DNA of 38,444 bases from a virus: IMG/VR virus record IMGVR_UViG_3300027759_000197, positions 1 to 38,444 of that record; one strand, given 5' to 3'. Every line of letters begins with the position of its first letter. Position 1 is the first letter of the stretch. This document shows, in pieces, positions 1 to 38,444 of the stretch. The position numbers and the translations under genes were made by a program. Below the pieces are notes generated by a model. That model had not been told where the DNA came from. It did no database searches and was given only the letters and a program-made list of their open reading frames with translations.

Positions 1-38
1 GATTTGGTTGTGCGCCCGCACATTGGACATTCGTTCAT
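1..38 (-). CDS. Zinc-ribbon mini-protein, 5' part (gene crosses the contig ends)
   Basis: ATG at 38 overlaps the TAA of the upstream gene (TAATG) and follows GAGGAGG. The first codons read MNECPMCGRTTK and then run off position 1. The first 9 bases of the window equal the last 9, so the frame continues at the far end and finishes at 38336. The joined product is 45 residues with a CPMC knuckle at residues 4-7 and a CIPC knuckle at 32-35, a typical four-cysteine zinc ribbon. Function is unknown; small zinc ribbons in phages may bind nucleic acid or host proteins. The 9-base overlap is a multiple of three, so the frame stays open whether or not those bases are counted once. Confidence 0.8.
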   Translation of the reverse strand, partial: MNECPMCGRTTK

Positions 39-615: not shown

Positions 616-621
616 TTTGCG

Positions 622-660
622 CCTTCTTTCGTTTGGGGGCTTCCGCCCTGGTAAGACATA
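622..660 (-). promoter_or_regulatory. Conserved 5' leader hairpin, copy 1
   Basis: On the minus strand this reads ACCAGGGCGGAAGCCCCC and then CAAACGAAAGAAGG. The core is a GGGC/GCCC stem capped by a GGAA tetraloop (bases 637-648), followed by a purine-rich linker ending in the Shine-Dalgarno sequence of the 615 gene. Near-identical elements sit at 2021-2060 and 6202-6240. The loop differs (GAAA in the other two) but stays GNRA, which suggests an RNA-level role in translation or mRNA stability. Confidence 0.65.
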
Positions 661-765
661 CATTGCCGTAGATCTGAAAGAAGTGCAACTATTTGTGCCA
701 CTTATTTCTGATATTTTTTATTTATTTTCACGCGTGTTGGCCCTGAATTAGAACACCTGTTCGGA
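661..765 (-). promoter_or_regulatory. Promoter-like region, copy 1, with SOS-box-like palindrome
   Basis: AT-rich block upstream of the leader at 622-660. It shares three segments with 2061-2155: ttcgga (760-765), acgcgtgt (730-737) and tatttgtgccacttatt (690-706). The last lies exactly 42 bases from the hairpin in both copies. A palindrome gaacacctgttcg at 751-763 resembles the actinobacterial LexA box. I could not assign -35 and -10 hexamers with confidence. Confidence 0.5.
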
Positions 766-864: not shown

Positions 865-963
865 CTAGTCCTTTCCCTCGGCACAGTCGGCGCAGATTGG
901 TTTGTGATAACCCGCCGCCTTGTAATCCCAGTAAAAGGATCGGCCGCATTCGTTGCATTTCAT
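865..963 (-). CDS. Zinc-ribbon mini-protein (32 aa)
   Basis: ATG at 963 follows AAAGGGTTGTTC. The product has a CNEC knuckle at residues 3-6 and a CADC knuckle near the C-terminus, separated by an aromatic linker (SFYWDYKAAGYHKPI), which is the classic rubredoxin-knuckle zinc-ribbon pattern. A longer frame from an ATG at 1053 has no ribosome-binding site and would run through the neighbouring zinc-ribbon gene at 980-1063 in another frame, so the short start is preferred. Function is unknown. Confidence 0.62.
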   Translation of the reverse strand: MKCNECGRSFYWDYKAAGYHKPICADCAEGKD

Positions 964-979
964 GAACAACCCTTTCGCT

Positions 980-1063
980 TTATTTGCAGCCGCCGCAATA
1001 ATTGGCCACGCGGATTTCTTTCTTTCCAATTTGGTAAGTGCGCCCGCATCCATAACAAGTCAC
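980..1063 (-). CDS. Zinc-ribbon mini-protein (27 aa, GTG start)
   Basis: A GTG at 1063 is preceded by AGAGGTGATCACC, with AGAGGTG a good Shine-Dalgarno sequence. The frame reads VTCYGCGRTYQIGKKE, then IRVANYCGGCK and TAA. The two knuckles (CYGC, CGGC) are spaced as in a minimal zinc ribbon. The clean start, paired knuckles and a neighbouring gene of the same type make it likely to be real despite its size. Function is unknown. Confidence 0.6.
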   Translation of the reverse strand: MTCYGCGRTYQIGKKEIRVANYCGGCK

Positions 1064-1089
1064 GGTGATCACCTCTGTTCTTTTTCTTT

Positions 1090-1296
1090 TTAACAAGCAG
1101 TCACCAAGCACAGTCCCAGGATGTGTCGGCTTTCGATTTCAGCCTTGGCCGCCTTTTTGGTTGGCGCATCCTCAATCACAAAGTTGTCAAACCAATTAGG
1201 GACCCAGGTTCCGTTGATCGGCTGGCATTCAGATCGGTGGTAAACATCCCAGCCATCCTCGTGCTTCCAATAGATCAGATCGCAACATCTTTTCAT
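1090..1296 (-). CDS. Hypothetical protein (68 aa)
   Basis: The start is the ATG at 1296 (MKRCCDLIYW), with CAGGAGGCAAA just upstream and an ATGA overlap with the preceding gene. The frame could be opened to 1413, but that region codes for another small gene in a different frame. The product is rich in tryptophan and cysteine (CC at 4-5, later C, plus LCLVTAC at the C-terminus). Metal binding is possible but there is no ordered knuckle pair. Function is unknown. Confidence 0.68.
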   Translation of the reverse strand: MKRCCDLIYWKHEDGWDVYHRSECQPINGTWVPNWFDNFVIEDAPTKKAAKAEIESRHILGLCLVTAC

Positions 1297-1391
1297 TTTG
1301 CCTCCTGCTGTTTTTCGCACCAGCGGCACATGCCAGCGCGTTTGATTTGGATTGGTGTGTGTGGTTCGGTTCCACACTTCGGACATTTCAT
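1293..1391 (-). CDS. Zinc-ribbon mini-protein (32 aa)
   Basis: ATG at 1391 overlaps the stop of the upstream gene (TAATG) and follows AAAGGAGGCAAAA, the best ribosome-binding site in this cluster. It begins MKCPKCGTEPH and contains a second knuckle CRWC about 17 residues later, then ends QQEAK with TGA overlapping the next ATG. The CPKC/CRWC pairs mark a zinc ribbon. The C-terminal EAK is specified by the next gene's GGAGGCAAA. Function is unknown. Confidence 0.72.
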   Translation of the reverse strand: MKCPKCGTEPHTPIQIKRAGMCRWCEKQQEAK

Positions 1392-1720
1392 TATTTTGCC
1401 TCCTTTGATCCAATTAACTTTCTTTCAATTGAGTCAGCAACGCGAAGCATGTGGCGAGCATCTGCTCGGTATGAAGCCACGCTTTCTCCATCGCGTTTCA
1501 ATTCATCCGCTCTCATAAACATATAATCTGCTTCGTCACGAAGTTCCACAATAAGTTGTCGCGCACACTCATTTGATAATTTAATCCGTCTAGATCCGTA
1601 CTGCTCATCCAAGGAGTCGTATAATTTGCGTGGCAAAGAACCAACCTTCTTATCCTCGCGGTCATCTAATTGAGACTGTAATTCCTGCCAAACGATCTTG
1701 GGTAAATTGATTTTGATCAT
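1391..1720 (-). CDS. Hypothetical helical protein (109 aa)
   Basis: ATG at 1720 is preceded by AAAGGAGGCAAACTA and overlaps the upstream stop. The product is charged and mostly helical, with many Arg/Asp/Glu residues (for example LRDEADYMFMRADELKRDGE) and no cysteine motif. It ends in KEAK, again encoded by the next ribosome-binding site. It may be a small DNA- or protein-binding factor, but I do not recognise it. Confidence 0.75.
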   Translation of the reverse strand: MIKINLPKIVWQELQSQLDDREDKKVGSLPRKLYDSLDEQYGSRRIKLSNECARQLIVELRDEADYMFMRADELKRDGESVASYRADARHMLRVADSIERKLIGSKEAK

Positions 1721-2013
1721 TAGTTTGCCTCCTTTGTTTTAAAGAGAAGGTTTGGTTCAAATGCTTTTGCGCATTCGTTTCCAACTGCCCAGCAACCCAT
1801 GTAGCCGCGATCGTTCGCAATGTCATGTTCTGTGCCATCTTGTAAGCGGATCTCGCCGCCGTTAATGCATTCGACCATCCAGGGATTGTTACCAACCAAG
1901 CGACCGCATTGAACACAGAACTGTGCGTCTGATGCATACTCTTTCTTGTCGCTCATCTTTGGCTCTGCAAAGTTAAGACCTTGTCCCGCTGCGATCTTTT
2001 CGCTTGTTGCCAC
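1720..2013 (-). CDS. Cysteine-containing small protein (97 aa), likely zinc-binding
   Basis: The most likely start is the GTG at 2013, with GAAGG seven bases upstream. This matches the architecture of the other hairpin-led genes. The frame is open to 2100, but those codons lie within the leader. The product contains FCVQCGR and later cysteines (VECINGG, GCWAVGNEC), so a zinc site is plausible. It ends KTKEAN. It heads an operon controlled by the promoter-like region 2061-2155. Function is unknown. A downstream ATG at MSDKKEYA is a weaker alternative start. Confidence 0.68.
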   Translation of the reverse strand: MATSEKIAAGQGLNFAEPKMSDKKEYASDAQFCVQCGRLVGNNPWMVECINGGEIRLQDGTEHDIANDRGYMGCWAVGNECAKAFEPNLLFKTKEAN

Positions 2014-2020
2014 TTTCTTG

Positions 2021-2060
2021 CCTTCTTTCTCTTGGGGGCTTTCGCCCTGTTGAGACATAC
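2021..2060 (-). promoter_or_regulatory. Conserved 5' leader hairpin, copy 2
   Basis: Minus-strand CAGGGCGAAAGCCCCCAAG with a GGGC-GAAA-GCCC hairpin (bases 2036-2047), followed by AGAAAGAAGG, the Shine-Dalgarno sequence of the GTG at 2013. It matches copies at 622-660 and 6202-6240. Confidence 0.65.
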
Positions 2061-2155
2061 CTTGCCATGGATCGGACAAGAATGGAAGTATTTGTGGCAC
2101 TTATTTTGACTATTTTTACGCGTGTTATCCTGTGAGTTTTATCCACATTCGGACA
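2061..2155 (-). promoter_or_regulatory. Promoter-like region, copy 2
   Basis: Shares ttcgga (2148-2153), acgcgtgt (2118-2125) and tatttgtggcacttatt (2089-2105) with the region at 661-765. The first two elements are 22 bases apart in both. The spacer between the second and third is 11 bases shorter here (12 against 23), about one helical turn. It lies between the RusA gene and the gene at 2013. Confidence 0.5.
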
Positions 2156-2156
2156 A

Positions 2157-2528
2157 TTAGGACCGCCAAAGCCCAACTTCCAGGAATGGGGCCGATCCAT
2201 AGACCTTAATTGCGTTAATCTCGGTCACCTGGCCGTCATCCAAATAAGCAATTGCAGTCATTGAGTCGAGAACGGCGCGGATCAACTTGTCGAGATCGGG
2301 AGCAACTGTTGGATGTAATCGTTTAACTGTTTTTGGTTTAGGCATTGAGAATAATAAATCTAATTTTACTGGTCCAGGTTCGGGCGTGCATCCAGCGCGG
2401 CGTGCTTCGATCGCAACTGCCGCTCGCCAAACTGCTAACTCTGCTCCCTTGTTATGAACTACATGGCCGTTGAAAACTCTCATCGAACCTTGCGGAACAG
2501 GAAGTCCGTCTACTCTGAAACTGATCAC
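2157..2528 (-). CDS. rusA: RusA-family Holliday junction resolvase
   Basis: The 123-residue product has the RusA fold signature. It has an N-terminal beta strand with PVPQGSMRV, the acidic catalytic block PDLDKLIRAVLDSM, and then a second acidic pair in AYLDDGQV. These aspartates bind the metals that cleave four-way junctions symmetrically, resolving recombination or replication intermediates before packaging. The length is usual for the family. Its start overlaps the stop of the preceding gene (ATGA). It is the last gene of the replication/recombination operon and is followed by a promoter-like region. Confidence 0.88.
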   Translation of the reverse strand: MISFRVDGLPVPQGSMRVFNGHVVHNKGAELAVWRAAVAIEARRAGCTPEPGPVKLDLLFSMPKPKTVKRLHPTVAPDLDKLIRAVLDSMTAIAYLDDGQVTEINAIKVYGSAPFLEVGLWRS

Positions 2529-6201: not shown

Positions 6202-6240
6202 CCTTCCTTTCAGTTTGGGGGCTTTCGCCCTGGTGAACAT
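6202..6240 (-). promoter_or_regulatory. Conserved 5' leader hairpin, copy 3
   Basis: Minus-strand CACCAGGGCGAAAGCCCCC with a GGGC-GAAA-GCCC hairpin (bases 6219-6230), then AAACTGAAAGGAAGG, the Shine-Dalgarno sequence of the gene at 6197. It matches copies 1 and 2, but the upstream tatttgtg block of those copies is absent here. Confidence 0.62.
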
Positions 6241-6341: not shown

Positions 6342-6554
6342 ATGGCTTATTCACAAATCTCGATCCGACTAGGTGGCCTTGCCGTGGAATTGGGAACCGA
6401 TGCCCAATATCCCGACATGGTTTCCGATCTAACTAACCGTTGCCTTTCCACTTTTAAAGATGCGATGGATAAAGCAAAAGATAACGGTGTAGACATCGCC
6501 AACATGAGGTTGATCACCAGCGATTATGGTGACGACTATGAGGATGATGAATAA
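6342..6554 (+). CDS. Plus-strand small acidic protein (70 aa)
   Basis: ATG at 6342 has a near-perfect AAGGAGG six bases upstream. The frame could be opened to 6264, but that part is the control region. The product begins MAYSQISIRLGGLAVELG, continues as a helical segment and ends in a strongly acidic tail (DYGDDYEDDE). Its TAA overlaps the ATG of a second small gene. Together with that gene it is the only plus-strand coding sequence in the genome. Function is unknown; an acidic tail could mimic DNA or bind a basic partner. Confidence 0.72.
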   Translation: MAYSQISIRLGGLAVELGTDAQYPDMVSDLTNRCLSTFKDAMDKAKDNGVDIANMRLITSDYGDDYEDDE

Positions 6555-6637
6555 TGTGCAAAGAATGCGGACATTGTTCTAGAGAACATTCCTACTCTGT
6601 TGATGACGCTGTGGACACAACCGAAGCGTCAATCTAG
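6554..6637 (+). CDS. Plus-strand cysteine/histidine mini-protein (27 aa)
   Basis: ATG at 6554 overlaps the preceding TAA (TAATG). The frame starts MCKECGHCSREH and ends TTEASI before TAG at 6637. Cysteines at 2, 5 and 8 with histidines at 7 and 12 could bind a metal. The last 9 bases overlap the 3' end of the convergent phosphoesterase gene. Translational coupling is the main support; function is unknown. Confidence 0.5.
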   Translation: MCKECGHCSREHSYSVDDAVDTTEASI

Positions 6638-22663: not shown

Positions 22664-22942
22664 TTATGAATTCCCATCTGTTGGAATACTGGAGTTGTTA
22701 TGCCCGCACCGTGAACACAATGCAAACCAACTACCAAAGCCACATTCTACGCAAGTAAATCCTCGTTCGCCGTCTTTACTGTCATAAGGATTTAATGCCG
22801 CCTCGAAATAACCCTCTGCCTTCATTAACTTTGCGTGCTTGGCATTGTCTACTGTGTAAATACCGCTGCGATCGGGGCGGTAGGTTGCGTTGCCAATAAC
22901 TGTTTCTTTCACACCTTTGTCGGGTGCTACCCATCTTGCCAT
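22664..22942 (-). CDS. Head-region protein with C-terminal zinc ribbon (92 aa)
   Basis: N-terminal segment TYRPDRSGIYTVDNAKHAKL followed by MKAEGYFEAA resembles small proteins placed after major capsid genes. The C-terminus has two knuckles, CVECGFGSWFALCSRCG, a compact zinc ribbon. It could be a minor capsid or connector accessory protein. It is preceded by the hairpin that follows the capsid gene. Confidence 0.68.
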   Translation of the reverse strand: MARWVAPDKGVKETVIGNATYRPDRSGIYTVDNAKHAKLMKAEGYFEAALNPYDSKDGERGFTCVECGFGSWFALCSRCGHNNSSIPTDGNS

Positions 22943-32052: not shown

Positions 32053-33441
32053 TCACTCCTTGGCCACTTCAGATTGAGTTGGTTCAATCATAGCGGTTCC
32101 ACACTTAGAACAATGCGACATTGCCTTTGGCATTGGTAATCCGCAACCAGGACAGAAGTTTGCGAGCGCTCCAAAGTATGACGAGATGCTGGCCCTTCCA
32201 AGTAAATCAGAAAAAGCCTGAACCAACGCATCAATACGATCAGGAGACTTTGCGTCTTGCGGTGTCCAAATCGTCATCTGATCCTCGAGCAATGGATATT
32301 CCCCAATGTGGTGGATACGGCCTTGTTCATACATTGCAGCAACTGGTTCTGCACGCAGACGCTTTCCAACATGGGCGCGAATTTCACGGATCGGTAAACC
32401 AAGCCGCACTTGCTTTAGAACAGCGCTGACCATGTCGCCGCCTTGGTTAACTTCAACCAAAATGCTGTCGGCTTTCCATTCATCAAATACCGCCACGGCT
32501 TTACTCGCCCAATCGAGCGGTGATCCACGGAATGAATAGTCGCCGAGAACATAACCGTGGCCGTTGGCATCCGATCCGCACACGATAATTCCTGTTTCAT
32601 CGCTTTCATCGGTATTAGTTACAGCAGGATCAATAGAAACAATGATGCGAGATAAAGGTGGGGCTTTGGGAAGGCGAGCGCGTTCGATCAGGCCCTTGGT
32701 CCATAGTGCGCCTTCAACATCCTCGAGGATTTCCCCGTATAACTCCTGGCGGCCCAGGCGTGTGCCGTTGTATCGGGCCTGAAGTTCAAGCAACGCTGCA
32801 GGGGCAAGGTTGGCCGCGTTATCAAAGGTTGAGCCGCGTGTGACCACGACAGAGCCGTCTTTGCGGCCCGCTAAGGCCCGAATGAGGGGCGTTGGCTTGG
32901 GGGTGGTGGTAACGATCACCCTGGGATGTTCGCCCAGGCGTAGGCCAAACTGCAATTGATCCCAAGAGTCGGAATATCGGTAAGAGGCCAACTCATCACA
33001 CCAGGCTCCGTGATGTTGCGGTCCACGGAAGCGCTCGGGTTCATCGGCCGAGAAAAGTTTAATGCGGGACCCGTTGTTAAGAATGATCTCACCGTTGTTG
33101 CGGTTCCAAGTCTTAAGCATTCGGTATCTACGCAGAACGCCTAGAATTCCTGATTGGCCCTCAGCGCAAGTATCACGAGCATCACCGAATGTCGGGGCTA
33201 CTATTGCCCAACGCGTCATCGGGTTTTGGATCGCTTCCCACGCTAACCACTCCGCTGCCGTTCTCGTCTTGCCCGCTCCGCGACCCGCCATGTAAAGCCA
33301 GGTCTTCCAACCGCCCTGGGGTGGCAACTGTTCCGATCTCGCTTGTTCCACTTTCCACTTCCAACGGCTCGCTGCTATCCACTCCTCGGAGGATATTGAC
33401 GATGCGTTCGATGTCTCCATCGATGTCACGATTTCCGTCAT
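32053..33441 (-). CDS. terL: Terminase large subunit with C-terminal zinc ribbon (462 aa)
   Basis: ATPase: Walker A AGRGAGKT (52-59) and Walker B GAWCDE (145-150). RNase H-like nuclease: IVSIDPAVTN (D271), ILVEVNQGGD (E330) and PDRIDALV (D401 or D404). Length is normal for siphoviruses up to about residue 425. An added tail follows with FCPGCG (C430, C433) and HCSKCG (C444, C447), a zinc ribbon. It pumps DNA and cuts concatemers. The first 260 bases overlap the small-subunit gene. Confidence 0.92.
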   Translation of the reverse strand: MTEIVTSMETSNASSISSEEWIAASRWKWKVEQARSEQLPPQGGWKTWLYMAGRGAGKTRTAAEWLAWEAIQNPMTRWAIVAPTFGDARDTCAEGQSGILGVLRRYRMLKTWNRNNGEIILNNGSRIKLFSADEPERFRGPQHHGAWCDELASYRYSDSWDQLQFGLRLGEHPRVIVTTTPKPTPLIRALAGRKDGSVVVTRGSTFDNAANLAPAALLELQARYNGTRLGRQELYGEILEDVEGALWTKGLIERARLPKAPPLSRIIVSIDPAVTNTDESDETGIIVCGSDANGHGYVLGDYSFRGSPLDWASKAVAVFDEWKADSILVEVNQGGDMVSAVLKQVRLGLPIREIRAHVGKRLRAEPVAAMYEQGRIHHIGEYPLLEDQMTIWTPQDAKSPDRIDALVQAFSDLLGRASISSYFGALANFCPGCGLPMPKAMSHCSKCGTAMIEPTQSEVAKE

Positions 33442-36147: not shown

Positions 36148-36226
36148 CCTCGTCATCCCAATCGCTGGGATCAACGGTCGGGTGATCAACTCGCAACGGG
36201 AGGCCAAATGGAGAGTCCATGCTCAT
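36137..36226 (-). CDS. Acidic mini-protein (29 aa)
   Basis: ATG at 36226 overlaps the TGA of the preceding gene (TGATG), with GGAGG ten bases upstream. Reads MSMDSPFGLPLRVDHPTVDP then SDWDDEDDD and TAA at 36137. The last nine residues are almost all acidic, like an SSB-type or DNA-mimic tail. It overlaps the HNH start by 11 bases. Function unknown. Confidence 0.6.
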   Translation of the reverse strand: MSMDSPFGLPLRVDHPTVDPSDWDDEDDD

Positions 36227-36576
36227 CAATACCAACCTCCTCTTAAATCGGGTCCTGCTTTGCGTTTCCAAAAGTTCCACGCTTGGCATGGAGTGTCGTA
36301 GCGCTTGTAGATGTATTGAAGCCCTGCGTCAATTTGAACCTGCGGATCTTTAGGTCGCAAAGGATACTTGTAATTTAGCCAGGTGGAGTCGAGAAATTGT
36401 GGAATGCCAAAGGCTGATGAATGCGGGTTCCTGGCTTTGTGATTCCAGCCGCTTTCTTTATGCCATAACAGATCCAAACAGGCAAACTCACGCTTAGCGT
36501 TGAGCCACTTCGACTCAACTTTCATCAGCGCATAAGACTTGGGCGACATTAGTTTGATCCTTTGTGCCTGAGTCAA
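36226..36576 (-). CDS. Lytic transglycosylase-like protein (116 aa from TTG)
   Basis: Contains the SLT-like core FACLDLLWHKESGWNHKARN, with Glu as candidate catalytic acid, then SSAFGIPQFLDSTW and QIDAGLQYIYKRYDTPCQAW, a pattern common in actinobacterial secreted transglycosylases. A TTG at 36576 gives the frame, but the in-frame sequence upstream (36577-36666) encodes a classic signal peptide without any standard start codon. It probably acts on peptidoglycan outside the membrane. C-terminus GGWY. Confidence 0.75.
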   Translation of the reverse strand: MTQAQRIKLMSPKSYALMKVESKWLNAKREFACLDLLWHKESGWNHKARNPHSSAFGIPQFLDSTWLNYKYPLRPKDPQVQIDAGLQYIYKRYDTPCQAWNFWKRKAGPDLRGGWY

Positions 36577-36666
36577 GTGCGGTGCTTGCGCTTGCGCGGA
36601 GGTTGCTGCAACAAGTCCAACCGCTAAGGCGGCTGCTAAGAGGACTCGCTTTGGGGTCTTAAAGGC
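36577..36666 (-). other. Signal-peptide-coding stretch without a standard start codon
   Basis: In frame with the transglycosylase gene this reads AFKTPKRVLLAAALAVGLVA then ATSAQAQAPH: a basic n-region, hydrophobic core and AQA-type cleavage site. It begins directly after the TAA (36669-36667) of a mini-gene in the same frame. No ATG, GTG or TTG occurs in it. It could start at an unusual codon, contain an assembly error, or be a remnant. Confidence 0.6.
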
Positions 36667-36756
36667 TTACTCGATCCGCCCCTTACGACAGGCTTCGCAG
36701 AGTTGTTCTCCGTAGTGCCACGCACCATAAGCGCAGCGGTTAATCATTTGATCCAT
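36667..36756 (-). CDS. Cysteine mini-protein (29 aa)
   Basis: ATG at 36756 follows AGAGGAACTTAAA. Sequence MDQMINRCAYGAWHYGEQLC then EACRKGRIE and TAA. C8, C20 and C23 (a CxxC) plus H14 could bind zinc. The stop is followed in the same frame by the signal-peptide-coding stretch of the transglycosylase. Function unknown. Confidence 0.6.
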   Translation of the reverse strand: MDQMINRCAYGAWHYGEQLCEACRKGRIE

Positions 36757-36790: not shown

Positions 36791-37003
36791 TTATTTTACC
36801 TTGAGCGCCCTAGAAAGGGGTCCATCAAACACCTTCGCGTGCGCTTTTCCGCTTGGCTCAACCAGCACAATCTCACGCTGTAACTTAGCAAAGCCAAAGT
36901 CCGTAAAGCGATCAAAAGCGTGAACAGCATCTACCGCGTTGTTATAACGCTGAGAAAAGGTCACAGCCCCATCCTCGACAACTTGGATCATGTATTCATT
37001 CAC
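36791..37003 (-). CDS. Hypothetical protein (70 aa)
   Basis: GTG start at 37003 with AAGGAGG seven bases upstream; overlaps the previous stop as GTGA. Product MNEYMIQVVEDGAVTFSQRY, then AVHAFDRFTDFGFAKLQREI and KVFDGPLSRALKVK, a small alpha/beta protein without cysteines. Function unknown. Confidence 0.68.
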   Translation of the reverse strand: MNEYMIQVVEDGAVTFSQRYNNAVDAVHAFDRFTDFGFAKLQREIVLVEPSGKAHAKVFDGPLSRALKVK

Positions 37004-37212
37004 GCTGACTCCTCCTTAAATGTAAAGGAATGCTTACAGAGTTCGCACTCCACGGTCTGTTCTACATTGCCCCAATCGTCTGTCTCAAAGTCCTCATCCC
37101 AAACAGCCGCGCAGGTTTGTTTATCATCCTGGCAGGTATCGCACATCTCAGCGCATACCATTTCACGAGTGATTGTGTGGCCCAGCGTTCCCGATCCATG
37201 CCAATATCCCAT
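37000..37212 (-). CDS. Zinc-binding small protein (70 aa)
   Basis: ATG at 37212 overlaps the stop of the upstream gene (TAATG). Contains VCAEMCDTCQDDKQTC, a cysteine-rich cluster, and a second site CELCKHSF close to the C-terminus. The knuckles suggest a zinc ribbon with an extra cysteine cluster. The end overlaps the next gene's GTG. Function unknown. Confidence 0.68.
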   Translation of the reverse strand: MGYWHGSGTLGHTITREMVCAEMCDTCQDDKQTCAAVWDEDFETDDWGNVEQTVECELCKHSFTFKEESA

Positions 37213-37861: not shown

Positions 37862-38061
37862 AATTCATCCTTTGCCCTCGCAACGACCACCGATTTGACG
37901 GCCGCTTGTAACCCATAGATTGCCATGGCATCGGCCACTTGTAGCCACACCGCCTCGCGCATTAGTGCATTTTTGTGAGATTTACTGAATGGGCGCTCGG
38001 GGCGCTCCACCCCGATCTCGCCGTCATAGTTGATCTCAATCTCGACTTTGAACTTATGCAT
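37858..38061 (-). CDS. Hypothetical protein (67 aa)
   Basis: Product MHKFKVEIEINYDGEIGVER, followed by a helical part (VWLQVADAMAIYGLQAAVKS). Small soluble alpha/beta protein; coupled on both sides by overlapping start/stop codons (ATGA downstream, a one-base overlap upstream). Function unknown. Confidence 0.66.
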   Translation of the reverse strand: MHKFKVEIEINYDGEIGVERPERPFSKSHKNALMREAVWLQVADAMAIYGLQAAVKSVVVARAKDEL

Positions 38062-38339
38062 CAGGACCTCCAGGTTTGTGTTTCATAGTTTGTGAGAATT
38101 AAGTGGCAGTTGAATGCCCGATCCCAAACGGTCTGCGTTTCGCAGTTTTGCGTGGTCAGATAAGCGCGGCAAAGAAGGACCGCCATAAAGTTATCCACCC
38201 AGTAGGCGTAGCGCCAATGAAGCATCGGGGCAGGATCAAAGCGATTAATCTGCTCGATCCAATGGCCGCCCCAGGGCATCGAGGTGTGGACCATCTGCTC
38301 GAAGTCCTCCTCGATCATGTGCAGTTTGATCTCGCTCAT
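38061..38339 (-). CDS. Hypothetical protein (92 aa)
   Basis: Begins MSEIKLHMIEEDFEQMVHTS and is rich in aromatic and His residues (MPWGGHWIEQINRF; APMLHWRYAYWVDNFM). No membrane helix is certain. Start coupled (ATGA) to the junction-crossing zinc-ribbon gene. Function unknown. Confidence 0.68.
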   Translation of the reverse strand: MSEIKLHMIEEDFEQMVHTSMPWGGHWIEQINRFDPAPMLHWRYAYWVDNFMAVLLCRAYLTTQNCETQTVWDRAFNCHLILTNYETQTWRS

Positions 38340-38444
38340 TTATTCACCATGCTTGCGTGTAGATCAGCGCAGGGAATGCAAACCCAGGTTAGGAATTGCT
38401 CGCCGTTGTCGTATTGATACCAGCGGCCCACCAGGGATTTGGTT
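38336..38444 (-). CDS. Zinc-ribbon mini-protein, 3' part (gene crosses the contig ends)
   Basis: Continuation of the frame at 1-38. From the end of the window the minus strand reads KSLVGRWYQYDNGEQFLTWV then CIPCADLHASMVNK and TGA, whose bases overlap the next ATG at 38339. CIPC supplies the second knuckle of the zinc ribbon begun by CPMC at the other end. The final 9 bases of the window (38436-38444) are the same as bases 1-9. Confidence 0.8.
   Translation of the reverse strand, partial: TKSLVGRWYQYDNGEQFLTWVCIPCADLHASMVNK

Follow-up and report, generated by a model that had tools for sequence, protein, structure and literature searches.

Zinc-type mini-genes between RusA and a transglycosylase in an uncultivated tailed phage, and a possible non-AUG start beside one of them

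The window analysed here is the whole of the virus record IMGVR_UViG_3300027759_000197, which is 38,444 bases long. Most of its genes are on the minus strand, and the features discussed are listed in Table 1. A cassette of small genes runs from RusA to a secreted transglycosylase, passing across the contig ends. The ends have a 9-bp overlap in common, gatttggtt (1-9 and 38436-38444), and the frame divided between them, zr_38336, is uninterrupted in relatives, L002/L011 among them. Thus, the split frame is one gene, and joining the ends through it makes the contig a circle. In related phages, RusA is followed by a variable stretch, after which come zr_38336-g38061-g37858, a membrane-type gene, zr_37000-g36791 and finally m_36667-transglycosylase. 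The segment is read, with confidence no better than even, as a cassette region with several operons, belonging to an uncultivated tailed phage and coding for single-domain, zinc-stabilised mini-proteins.

A repeated leader is present at three places in the window. Each copy ends in GGGCG(A/G)AAGCCC, and the same element precedes the cassettes of the relatives. The hairpin of the second copy appears in the minimum-energy fold, with a z-score of only -1.5. A promoter may lie just upstream of the leader. The upstream part of the leader itself carries an imperfect inverted repeat, AAGTGxCACAAATAxTTGCACTT, which may be a candidate regulator site. The spacing of the leader prompted a sigma-54-like reading, which was dropped. 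Whatever timing is assigned to the operons is deduced from the layout.

Table 1. Features of the window; the last column gives amino acid identity in relatives and nucleotide differences from the window at codon positions 1/2/3
Feature	Position	Strand	Description	Relatives
leader copy 1	621..718	-	GGGCGGAAGCCC hairpin; ahead of g316-g38-zr_38336 operon; repeat family D2	
zr_865	865..963	-	32-aa CxxC-x16-CxxC mini-protein (MKCNECGRSFYWDYKAAGYHKPICADCAEGKD); AGGG-type SD	73-91% in several relatives; 21/16/50 (pairwise 154/116/338)
zr_980	980..1063	-	GTG start, 27 aa, or 30 aa from GTG 1072; CxxC...CxxC; SD GAGGTG upstream of GTG	18/21/51
o_1090	1090..1296	-	68-aa Cys-containing companion downstream of zr_1293; AGGAGG SD	91-94%
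zr_1293	1293..1391	-	32-aa CxxC...CxxC; AAAGGAGG SD; TAATG overlap with preceding gene	97-100% in L008, L009, L031, L032; 0/1/42
g1720	1720..2013	-	97-aa Cys-rich (CVQC...C...C...C); first gene of leader-driven operon	59-62% in L013, L028, L031
leader copy 2	2020..2117	-	ahead of g1720...zr_865 operon	
RusA	2157-2528		one border of small-gene cassette	
HTH/nuclease block	near 2.8-6.2 kb			
hairpin copy 3	6213..6234	-	ahead of 5637-6197 gene; repeat family D10	
m_6554	6554..6637	+	27-aa MCKECGxCSxEH protein	71-85%; 12/6/30
terminase-portal-tail block		-		
transglycosylase	36226..36663	-	secreted, transglycosylase/lysozyme-like; PHROG transglycosylase matches; start TTT at 36663..36661 by alignment	
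m_36667	36667..36756	-	29-aa Cys mini-protein immediately upstream of transglycosylase; GAGAGGAA SD	83-100% in close relatives; 42/38/110
zr_37000	37000..37212	-	70-aa six-Cys zinc-ribbon-like; TDDWGN motif; TAATG overlap	301/294/638
g38061	38061..38339	-	92-aa partner gene of zr_38336, directly after it	
zr_38336, 3' part	38336..38444	-	gene total 45 aa	58-96%; 98/67/201
zr_38336, 5' part	1..38	-	ATG start at 38; SD GAGGAGG	

A sequence-only reading had named seven tiny cysteine frames in this DNA. All seven are present where it placed them, and all are real genes, as judged from SD and stop overlap, from relatives and from synonymous change. Its remark that most of them fall below the size of normal gene calling holds, and applies to nearly all. 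Most of the mini-genes begin 5-10 nt after an SD, and several show a AAAGGAGGCAAAATAATG-type arrangement, their start overlapping the stop of the gene before. Relatives were collected with g1391, RusA, the transglycosylase and a zr_37000 alignment as scan queries; this gave about 110 loci, some being overlapping parts of the same contig. The frames were checked for breakage in these relatives and are intact, with changes mainly at third codon positions. The mini-genes are under purifying selection. Median dN/dS over pairs runs from 0.02 to 0.29 across them (0.13 over 72 pairs for zr_38336, 0.21 over 192 pairs for zr_37000), with the exception of zr_980, the high value of which (0.53) comes from four pairs only. 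The companion o_1090 has a median of 0.10. The partner gene g38061, which is present in loci with zr_38336 and missing where zr_38336 is missing, has a median of 0.04. The near-identity of zr_1293 is found at a dS of about 1; recent horizontal transfer of this gene is ruled out by its saturated synonymous sites.

The density of such genes was compared with chance by Markov resampling of the cassette, counting ORFs of 24-90 aa that follow an SD and contain two CxxC pairs. Four are observed in the 4.4-kb cassette against a mean of 0.0025 by chance. For stretches of three control phages, 36-42 kb in length, the count over both strands is one or two apiece. In the relatives, 205 CxxC mini-ORFs lie on the cassette strand and 20 on the other, most of the latter being recurring mini-protein families. 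The 28-kb late region holds a single one, which is the C-terminus of the terminase; this ORF end (32056-32277, minus strand) is a CxxC...CxxC zinc-ribbon tail and is conserved in the relatives. The virion module is, even so, not wholly free of such proteins, since a 92-aa protein of the structural region (z22664, 22664-22942, minus strand), with a C-terminal CxxC...CxxC and 64% identity in L112, lies above the 90-aa limit of the count. That the mini-genes are chance ORFs and not genes is next to inconceivable: short CxxC-paired ORFs are found inside other genes too, but conservation, codon-position bias, SD sites and density all speak against it, and the intact frames in relatives had already rejected it.

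In related phages, CxxC mini-proteins of at least 14 families occupy the interval from RusA to the transglycosylase. This count was obtained by curation of clusters, with the terminase tail and antisense matches left out; the cluster 'MTIWTP...' was rejected as a mini-protein, since it corresponds to the C-terminus of the terminase ORF. The earlier suggestion of a diversified, exchanged set is thus borne out. The label of an accessory segment fits in part: zr_865, zr_980 and zr_1293 come and go and have no constant neighbour, whereas zr_38336, zr_37000 and m_36667 are near-constant in the interval. Some of the families extend to phages of 30-134 kb. Homologues of zr_980 occur both there and in close relatives, and their sole invariant columns are the four cysteines. 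Relatives of zr_37000 are encoded on 89 IMG/VR stretches. Its alignment has invariant cysteine columns, and in the larger phages the protein is a plain four-cysteine ribbon. Dense real genes of about 30 codons can therefore fill phage DNA that usual gene calling leaves partly empty.

The common cysteine pattern claimed for these proteins stands as far as zinc-type pairs are concerned. Cysteines are among the invariant alignment columns of the mini-proteins, with all four retained in the zr_865 homologues, and the pairs are taken to bind zinc. The full set of four is absent from m_36667 in the window and from m_6554. The former has three cysteines, with CxxC...CxxC or an H-for-C variant in distant relatives, and the latter has three and one histidine, without two separate CxxC knuckles; zr_37000 has six.

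In profile searches, no mini-protein of the window reached a curated Pfam or NCBIfam cut-off, no PHROG match of theirs was convincing, and none of the relatives' mini-proteins tested reached the Pfam cut-off. Thus, among those tested, none of at least 14 CxxC families belongs to a Pfam, PHROG or NCBIfam family at cut-off. The best score against Com (PF10122) was that of zr_1293, 10.0 of the 22.9 bits of the gathering score, and m_36667 had no match. The same protein scored 13.7 of 27 bits against the Gin anti-sigma-G family (PF10764), also below the gathering score. Against the FmdB-type Zn_ribbon_8 (PF09723), a relative's protein (L018) reached 24.6 of 34.4 bits and no window protein matched; against Ogr/Delta (PF04606), there was no match at E <= 1 among the window proteins. 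Cultured phages searched for zr_38336, zr_37000 and a zr_980-type protein gave no match.

An AlphaFold model of zr_38336 (mean pLDDT 89) has strands at 15-20 and 26-31, a helix at 33-44 and cysteines at 4, 7, 32 and 35. The protein models as a treble-clef layout, that is, a CxxC knuckle, a beta-hairpin and a second CxxC at the N-terminus of the helix. The top PDB matches of the model are L24e ribosomal proteins at around 20-28% identity, with E of 0.66 at best and a TM of about 0.4. They are not significant, and the likeness to the L24e treble clef is a comparison of folds only. The best viral structure match had an E of 0.09. The zr_37000 model (mean pLDDT 74) found no significant PDB match, and a sequence search of solved structures with queries A1 and A3 gave nothing convincing.

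Numerous CxxC microproteins have been described in the HF1-group haloviruses HF1, HF2, Serpecor1 and Hardycor2 (PMC7230728). These are mostly below 100 aa, of unknown function and absent from the virion-assembly region, and the same genomes carry repeated intergenic sequences with promoter activity (PMC7230728). The window is alike in its many small CxxC genes, with four in the 4.4-kb cassette against one in the late region. However, the HF1 group consists of archaeal myoviruses, while the window phage is presumably bacterial, and the likeness is one of description, the homology searches being the profile searches and the phage-collection searches with three mini-proteins given above.

It is proposed that each mini-protein would be a small adaptor binding one macromolecule, such as the host RNA polymerase, the ribosome, another enzyme or an mRNA, and that this binding would alter the physiology of the infected cell or the expression of the phage's own genes. 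As for the variable members, they would be host-directed functions exchanged between phages. A mixed picture is favoured, in which the variable members are probably host-directed and at least one constant member is most likely tied to the control of a phage gene.

A second explanation makes all of them phage-internal regulators, Com-like or Ogr-like, each controlling a neighbour gene through phage transcripts or promoters. The phage P2 Ogr and P4 Delta proteins are small, have cysteine metal sites and act on transcription. The adjacency of m_36667 to a transglycosylase without an AUG start, the association of g38061 with zr_38336 and the stop/start overlaps all agree with such a role. On the other hand, no Com or Ogr/Delta family was recognised by profile, the window proteins are shorter than Ogr and Delta, and zr_865, zr_980 and zr_1293 lack a constant neighbour. 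As an account of the whole set, this explanation is possible but doubtful.

Host takeover or anti-defence, the role suggested in the sequence-only reading, is plausible for these proteins, and their profile searches gave no defence-related match and no family pointing to either activity. In its strict form, each mini-protein would inhibit one host defence system, and its presence would track the defences of the host strain. Anti-defence loci typically consist of small proteins packed in operons, as here, and zr_865, zr_980, zr_1293 and other families turn over in one interval between core genes. Yet three families are near-constant, and zr_1293 is near-invariant despite saturated synonymous sites, unlike arms-race proteins; it thus looks more like a protein with a conserved target than one evolving against a defence protein. 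An anti-defence set of this kind is considered unlikely.

The reading preferred here joins zinc-stabilised adaptors with a coupled control of the transglycosylase through m_36667, and taken together the two are held with middling confidence. The second part comes from an unusual gene start. In the window and its close relatives, none of ATG, GTG and TTG stands where the conserved signal peptide of the transglycosylase should begin. An m_36667-type ORF lies directly upstream in 78 distinct loci, its stop only a few nucleotides away from the inferred start. When the codons from -4 to +9 nt relative to the mini-ORF stop were scanned, 76 of the 78 loci had one or more near-cognate (NTN) codons, including AUA, CUG and GUU, and no canonical one. 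The other two have a TTG, with a CTG better placed, and an ATG was found in none. Among the loci with an SD 5-9 nt ahead, ATA is best placed in 19, CTG in 18, GTT in 13, TTA in 4, ATT and CGC in 2 each and TTG in 1. By contrast, an SD-preceded ATG is present in 11 of the 29 loci where the pattern did not find a mini-ORF (Fisher p ~1e-7, shared ancestry ignored). On inspection, a mini-ORF with a histidine for a cysteine is present in several of the other 18 (L018, L202, L207 and L208), and some loci without a recognised mini-protein likewise have no canonical transglycosylase start. In L042, L045 and L046, an unrelated ORF takes the place of the cysteine mini-ORF, and there the transglycosylase begins with a normal ATG.

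These starts fit near-cognate initiation with translational coupling to the mini-ORF. Since a near-cognate start by itself should work poorly, translation of the transglycosylase would depend on this coupling. In this way, m_36667 would exert translational control over the secreted enzyme next downstream. Readthrough of the m_36667 stop could instead give a fusion of knuckle, signal peptide and enzyme. The two frames are in register in the main clade, with TAA or TAG between them, as readthrough would need. The frame of the enzyme relative to the mini-ORF, however, varies between clades (L018-L021, L057, L085, L090, L095 and L112 have it in another frame), which makes readthrough unlikely and rules it out as a general mechanism. 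The stop codon and the codon after it vary as well, and in many loci an SD stands 5-9 nt ahead of the near-cognate codon. Readthrough is accordingly given very little credence.

Coupled near-cognate initiation resembles a known arrangement. In phage Mu, the gene of a tiny zinc protein, com, overlaps the next gene, mom, and controls its translation. The layout of m_36667 directly before the transglycosylase is the same, and its protein may perhaps also act on the transglycosylase as Com does on mom. Here, however, no Com profile match rises above the cut-off, the neighbour is a secreted cell-wall enzyme and the start is non-AUG. A bolder proposal, offered tentatively, is that the zinc mini-protein licenses near-cognate initiation on the adjacent transglycosylase mRNA, the other mini-proteins of the cassette being cousins with other targets. 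If true, synthesis of the cell-wall-cutting enzyme would have to await the mini-protein or would scale with its amount. Whether non-AUG initiation coupled to a zinc mini-ORF holds back such an enzyme is a testable question. For annotators, the gene is a concrete case in which the true start probably differs from ATG, GTG and TTG. In the open papers searched, no bacterial-phage precedent and no non-AUG phage lysozyme was found, though one may exist elsewhere.

As to the host, the terminase matches in cultured phages come mostly from bacterial hosts, all below 60% identity, and the terminase and portal searches weakly suggest Actinomycetota. A search of 166 genomes of the order to which this lead points found no match to a zr_37000 profile; having no positive control, it shows little. 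The closest genome match, L112, is a phage-like contig in an Actinomycetota MAG, with a terminase 81% identical to that of the window. The two have RusA, m_36667, HNH, SSB, terminase and portal in common.
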